Shown here: positions 44,322-44,555 of the stretch, piece by piece | Layout of the letters: each line of letters opens with the position of its first letter | How positions within the stretch are numbered: the first letter of the stretch is position 1 | From: Brockia lithotrophica | GTDB lineage: Bacteria > Bacillota > Bacilli > Thermicanales > DSM-22653 | Assembly: GCF_003633725.1 (NCBI RefSeq) | Contig: NZ_RBIJ01000002.1 | Location: 68,598-132,597 of the forward strand | Length of the DNA stretch: 64,000 bases | Direction: 5' to 3' | Made by a program: the position numbers and the translations under genes | Notes under the pieces: model-generated | The model's input: the letters and a program-made list of their open reading frames with translations, nothing else | Told to the model about the DNA's origin: nothing | Databases searched by the model: none

Positions 44322-44351
44322 TTGACAACCGTTCCCCCTTTTTTGTATAAC
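44322..44351 (+). promoter_or_regulatory. Strong plus-strand promoter
   Basis: Perfect -35 TTGACA (44322-44327), 18 bp, -10 TATAAC (44346-44351). It is divergent from the gdhA promoter and points into a gap with no protein gene on that strand. Confidence 0.7.
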
Positions 44352-44357
44352 AGACTC

Positions 44358-44555
44358 AACCTTTGCTACTACAGTCAGACAAACGCGAGGGCACGCGCGA
44401 AGAAGGCCACCGCAGAAAACTCACCCCCGAAAAATCCCTTGCAGGGGGCGTCGTCCTCCGGTGACCTTCCTCGGGCGCGCCGGCGCCCATGGGTACCACC
44501 TTCACCCATCTCCACCTACCGCCCAGTCCGGGGAACCCCGCTGGGCATTTTTTTT
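44358..44555 (+). ncRNA. Candidate structured non-coding RNA, about 200 nt
   Basis: A plus-strand unit between divergent gdhA and convergent kdpD. It begins after a near-consensus promoter and ends in a strong intrinsic terminator (GCCCAG...CTGGGC enclosing GGGG/CCCC, 44521-44546, then eight T). The interior shows pairing: AGAAGGCCACCG with CGGTGACCTTCCT (one or two mismatches) enclosing CCCCC / GGGGG; GGGCGC / GCGCCC; ATGGGT / ACCCAT. No start codon with a ribosome-binding site was found. It matched none of 6S, SRP, tmRNA, RNase P or riboswitch signatures I can recall. The terminator ends 5 bp from the kdpD stop. Confidence 0.55.

Follow-up and report, generated by a model that had tools for sequence, protein, structure and literature searches.

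A predicted noncoding RNA gene, restricted to its genus, between gdhA and kdpD in Brockia lithotrophica

Introduction

The gap between gdhA and kdpD in Brockia lithotrophica carries a plus-strand promoter and a terminator with no evident gene between them. Is this an RNA gene, and how might its product act? An earlier note on the DNA had proposed an orphan RNA gene here. We analyzed the gap within a window of 64,000 nt (the whole stretch examined, from contig NZ_RBIJ01000002.1) of the source genome, G000 (1.87 Mb, 12 contigs), and compared it with the congeneric genome G001 and with more distant relatives. The coordinates of the features are collected in Table 1.

Table 1 Features of the RNA unit, its neighbors and the small-protein family
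Feature	Position	Strand	Description	Basis
Promoter	44322..44351	+	sigma-A-type, TTGACA-N18-TATAAC	sequence; hexamers and spacing the same in G001
RNA 5' segment	44357..44388	+	weakly structured, 100% identical in G001	alignment, fold
Rod	44385..44486	+	long and irregular, 25 pairs counted, interrupted by single mismatches; conserved at its base	MFE folds of G000 and G001
Apical part of rod	44412..44459	+	diverged, ~52% identity, indels	G001 alignment
RNA 3' half	44460..44554	+	95 nt, every letter the same in G001	G001 alignment
C-rich hairpin	44489..44509	+	AUGGGU-ACCACCUUC-ACCCAU; loop complementary to Shine-Dalgarno-type GAAGGUGG	both folds
C-rich linker	44510..44520	+	single-stranded, CUCCACCUACC	both folds
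Intrinsic terminator	44521..44555	+	with T8	sequence, fold, present in G001
gdhA	42773..~44150	-	divergent neighbor, outside the unit	frameshifted in this assembly
kdpD	44561..45904	-	convergent neighbor, outside the unit	short form without kinase domain
~105-aa family member	L026:2683-3000	-		
~105-aa family member	L027:2763-3077	-		
~105-aa family member	L038 from ~1500	+		

An intergenic unit with its own promoter and terminator

The promoter, already described in the earlier note as near-consensus, reads as TTGACA (44322-44327), an 18-nt spacer and TATAAC (44346-44351). It is one of six perfect TTGACA-N16-18-TATAAN sites in 1.57 Mb (84% of the genome), all of them intergenic; two Markov simulations contained none. 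From these counts we conclude that the promoter is real and likely strong. Two of the other five sites lead to tRNAs and one to a Veg-like gene. Another precedes a small ORF with a pilin-like gene behind it, and the fifth lies ahead of a stretch that has no ORF and adjoins a CRISPR-like array. By its sequence, the promoter at 44322 is of a near-perfect housekeeping type with no obvious regulation.

Transcription is predicted to start at ~44358 and to end at ~44555, which gives an RNA of ~198 nt from the plus strand. The terminator was recognized in the earlier note as well and is composed of GCCCAG-UC-CGGG-GAAC-CCCG-CUGGGC-A-T8, with a 2-nt bulge in the stem; 5 bp separate its end from the kdpD stop (44561). 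A simple pattern scan overlooks both signals, since it requires T as the final -10 base and an unbulged stem. No gene follows on the plus strand, where the convergent kdpD comes next, and we therefore ruled out a cis-regulatory leader or riboswitch, in agreement with the earlier reading.

Both neighbors have peculiarities of their own. In this assembly gdhA consists of two frames that overlap (44159..43491 and 43582..42773), and in G001 it is a single open frame; the split is either a frameshift or an assembly error. kdpD encodes the KdpD sensor and Usp domains and lacks the kinase, and its best NCBIfam model, KdpD_non_kinase, scores 505 bits, under the 550-bit cut-off.

We also observed a second ORF-less promoter unit in the genome (G000:C1:369140-369420, equivalent to L063:9140-9420, plus strand). 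Its promoter, a perfect TTGACA-N16-TATAAT, borders a CRISPR-like array. Roughly 200 nt follow in which no gene was called, and a terminator-like hairpin, which faces a lexA-like gene, closes the stretch. The adjoining array (C1:368469-369102) has a 61-bp spacing, and next to a second array (C4:170797-172067) there is a similar flank of 53 bp.

Conservation and fold of the RNA

The one congeneric genome compared carries the RNA unit in the equivalent gap. Identity between the two genomes is ~90% in gdhA and kdpD and 85% in the stretch from gdhA to the promoter, and the unit contains two identical runs, one of 52 nt (the -10 hexamer plus the RNA 5' end) and the 95 nt of the 3' half. Only 72.3% of fourfold-degenerate sites are identical genome-wide, so the chance that 95 neutral positions would all be unchanged is estimated at ~4e-14. 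Of the 577 gaps between genes that measure 100 nt or more, only six others have an identical run of at least 95 nt. Judged by sequence, two of these are tRNA clusters, one is an S-box (SAM) leader and three resemble coding stretches; the labels are approximate because the gene calls for this survey were home-made, and the coding-like stretches are probably missed genes. The SRP RNA and tmRNA have shorter identical runs than the RNA unit.

The minimum free energy (MFE) fold of the RNA has -76.2 kcal/mol (z -2.9), and none of 200 shuffles was equally stable; the 3' half is also stable when folded alone (z -3.4). The folds of the two genomes, computed independently, share a common plan of a weak 5' segment, a rod, a C-rich hairpin, a free linker and the terminator. 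The earlier note had described a long imperfect stem enclosing a CCCCC/GGGGG hairpin. The stem (AGAAGGCCACCG with CGGTGACCTTCC) is present in both folds, but the apical hairpin forms only in G000 and is not conserved in G001. Among the 25 rod pairs, one shows a compensatory change from G-C to A-U and two change to G-U; in addition, one mismatch in G000 is a G-C pair in G001, and no pair is lost there. These changes are consistent with the fold, and with two sequences the covariation in the rod does not exceed the shuffle control.

We checked all start codons in the RNA and found no ORF that is shared by both genomes and closes before the terminator: each frame either runs through the terminator or is absent from G001, which bears out the earlier view that the unit has no ORF. 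Comparison of these two genomes shows selection on the predicted transcription unit as a whole, on its ends and on its fold, and shows it to be noncoding. With promoter, RNA ends, fold and terminator all conserved in the same gap of a relative, which is where the earlier note had proposed to look, the proposal of an orphan RNA gene gains strong support.

No Rfam family matched at the gathering cut-off, and permissive searches returned noise only. A match of G001 to RF02613 (24.9 bits, with the cut-off at 191) was dismissed as meaningless. 6S RNA was rejected as an identity too, as its model (RF00013) has no match at the unit and the 6S RNA of the genome lies at G000:C1:636504-636690. Searches with blastn did not find the RNA outside the genus, either across the order or in 398 genomes of the class, where the weak matches were short or fell in the promoter. 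Covariance-model searches of the order, of 101 relatives and of 398 genomes from the phylum recovered it in this genus only. Of two exact-pattern scans of genome contigs, one was empty and the other returned a single chance match, antisense in a Lysinibacillus gene; a scan of viral contigs found no relative. Within the genomes searched, the RNA represents an undescribed and apparently genus-specific family.

A small-protein gene at the same place in sister genera

The three remaining genomes of the family (G002, G003 and G004) all carry a gene for a protein of ~105 aa in the unit that faces the 3' end of kdpD. The order in G003 and G004, which belong to a sister genus, is kdpD, the small gene on the opposite strand and gdhA; the small gene of G002 is likewise convergent on kdpD. 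Its promoters are TTGAAC-17-TATAAC (G002, G003) and TTGACG-17-TATAAC (G004), and its terminator adjoins the end of kdpD. The small gene therefore shares position, orientation, the -10 hexamer TATAAC and the placement of the terminator with the RNA gene, whereas the RNA has no ORF of this kind. The protein has no Pfam or NCBIfam name, and a distant paralogue is still found in G000 (C5:2976-3257). Members of the family have the C-terminal motif LNxWYxRxxGxxxxPYYG, and several genomes of the order have at least two copies, one of which faces the 3' end of kdpD.

The first ~30 nt of the RNA resemble the C-terminal codons of the small gene in G002 to a degree reached by 1 of 300 shuffles, in one of several comparisons made; a joint test gave 1 of 200. 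A profile of the protein found nothing at the RNA locus (E 7.5). The RNA may thus descend from the small-protein gene, with suggestive nucleotide similarity and a negative protein profile. In its genus, the RNA stands where the sister genera have this gene. It is conceivable, if rather doubtful, that a young regulatory RNA took over the unit, with the promoter type and place kept, the ORF lost and the RNA evolved in place or inserted.

Possible modes of action

Several small RNAs of Firmicutes, including RoxS, FsrA and IsrR, use C-rich segments to block translation at Shine-Dalgarno regions. The RNA described here has its own promoter, stem-loops and an intrinsic terminator in common with these three, but it is longer (~198 nt), contains a long rod, has other neighbors and shows no sequence match to them. 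IsrR and FsrA are documented to bind Shine-Dalgarno regions through C-rich single-stranded loops (PMC9410917), and both folds of our RNA predict a comparable C-rich loop and linker complementary to the Shine-Dalgarno sequence.

We lean towards an independent, genus-specific noncoding RNA gene of ~200 nt, with a strong sigma-A promoter, whose product acts in trans by base pairing. By analogy with the known systems, pairing with mRNAs would be the most likely mechanism. The RNA would pair with several mRNAs through the hairpin loop ACCACCUUC and the linker CUCCACCUACC, which would cover G-rich Shine-Dalgarno regions and block translation. The rod would stabilize the RNA and might be trimmed by RNase III.

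The loop has exact 8-nt complements in 41 start regions, where coding interiors would predict 9.5, and these complements cluster at -15 to -5. Scored against dinucleotide shuffles, the loop pairs with 24 start regions (shuffle mean 9.1), and 22 of 300 shuffles reach as many, so that its excess of Shine-Dalgarno pairing over shuffles is only suggestive. The linker has no excess of start-region pairing over shuffles. The best conserved target pairing also does not exceed that of shuffled RNA (62 of 120 shuffles were as good); a prfA-like gene at the top of the conserved-target ranking was discarded, as shuffled RNAs reach equally strong best matches.

The earlier note had thought it conceivable that the RNA acts in nitrogen or potassium control. 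The start regions of gdhA, kdpA, kdpB and kdpC do not clearly stand out in their pairing with those single-stranded segments that are conserved; that of kdpB ranks in the top 4-6%. The kdpD start region has one strong match to the linker, in the top 1% of start regions with ~32 comparisons made, at a site where the upstream sequence differs in G001. A specific link of the RNA to kdp or gdhA has no specific support.

Alternative explanations

Instead of pairing with mRNAs, the RNA could bind a protein or a ribosome component as a scaffold or decoy, by a logic similar to that of 6S RNA, and the invariance of the 3' half would then reflect a protein-binding fold. With 6S RNA it shares a strong promoter, a length of ~190-200 nt and a rod-like 5' domain, but it lacks a covariance-model match and the large central bubble. 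The 95 nt are invariant letter by letter, including paired positions, and this, the rod shape, the stability of the 3' half (z -3.4), the strong promoter and a target prediction not above shuffles all fit such a role. Against it, neither 6S RNA nor another Rfam family matches, the 6S RNA of the genome is located elsewhere, and the C-rich loop and linker are left single-stranded, as in base-pairing small RNAs. We consider protein binding rather unlikely. An action on the immediate neighborhood is improbable: the unit could give rise to kdpD antisense RNA by read-through of the terminator, or insulate kdpD and gdhA transcriptionally. It converges on kdpD at a distance of 5 bp from the stop, and kdpD is found in every genome of the family, missing only in G005. 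However, the unit does not overlap kdpD and ends in a strong T8 terminator, and an insulator would need neither 95 identical nucleotides nor a near-perfect promoter.

The similarity to the small-protein gene of G002, G003 and G004 in position, orientation and -10 TATAAC, together with the resemblance of the first ~30 nt to C-terminal codons (1 of 300 shuffles; joint 1 of 200), might instead mean that the ORF was deleted or replaced in the genus and that the transcript is a decayed, functionless remnant. This is quite improbable, as 95 identical nucleotides are incompatible with decay where neutral sites have diverged by 28%; moreover, the protein profile is negative and most of the RNA corresponds to nothing in the small gene. 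A short mRNA, encoding a small protein or belonging to a dual-function RNA, is the reading to which we give least credence. G000 does contain a 33-codon TTG frame, but this frame is absent from G001 and is not preceded by a ribosome-binding site, frames from other starts run through the terminator, and the 3' half lacks variation at wobble positions. Weighing these points, we return to a trans-acting, base-pairing RNA as the favored reading; whatever its mode of action, the small RNA gene is probably genuine, genus-restricted and strongly expressed.

With this gene, a sparsely sampled and little-annotated bacterial lineage would gain an RNA family not described before and probably expressed at a high level. 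Since the sister genera keep a protein gene with an identical -10 hexamer at this position, the locus may also show how the transcription unit of a protein gene was reused for an RNA gene.
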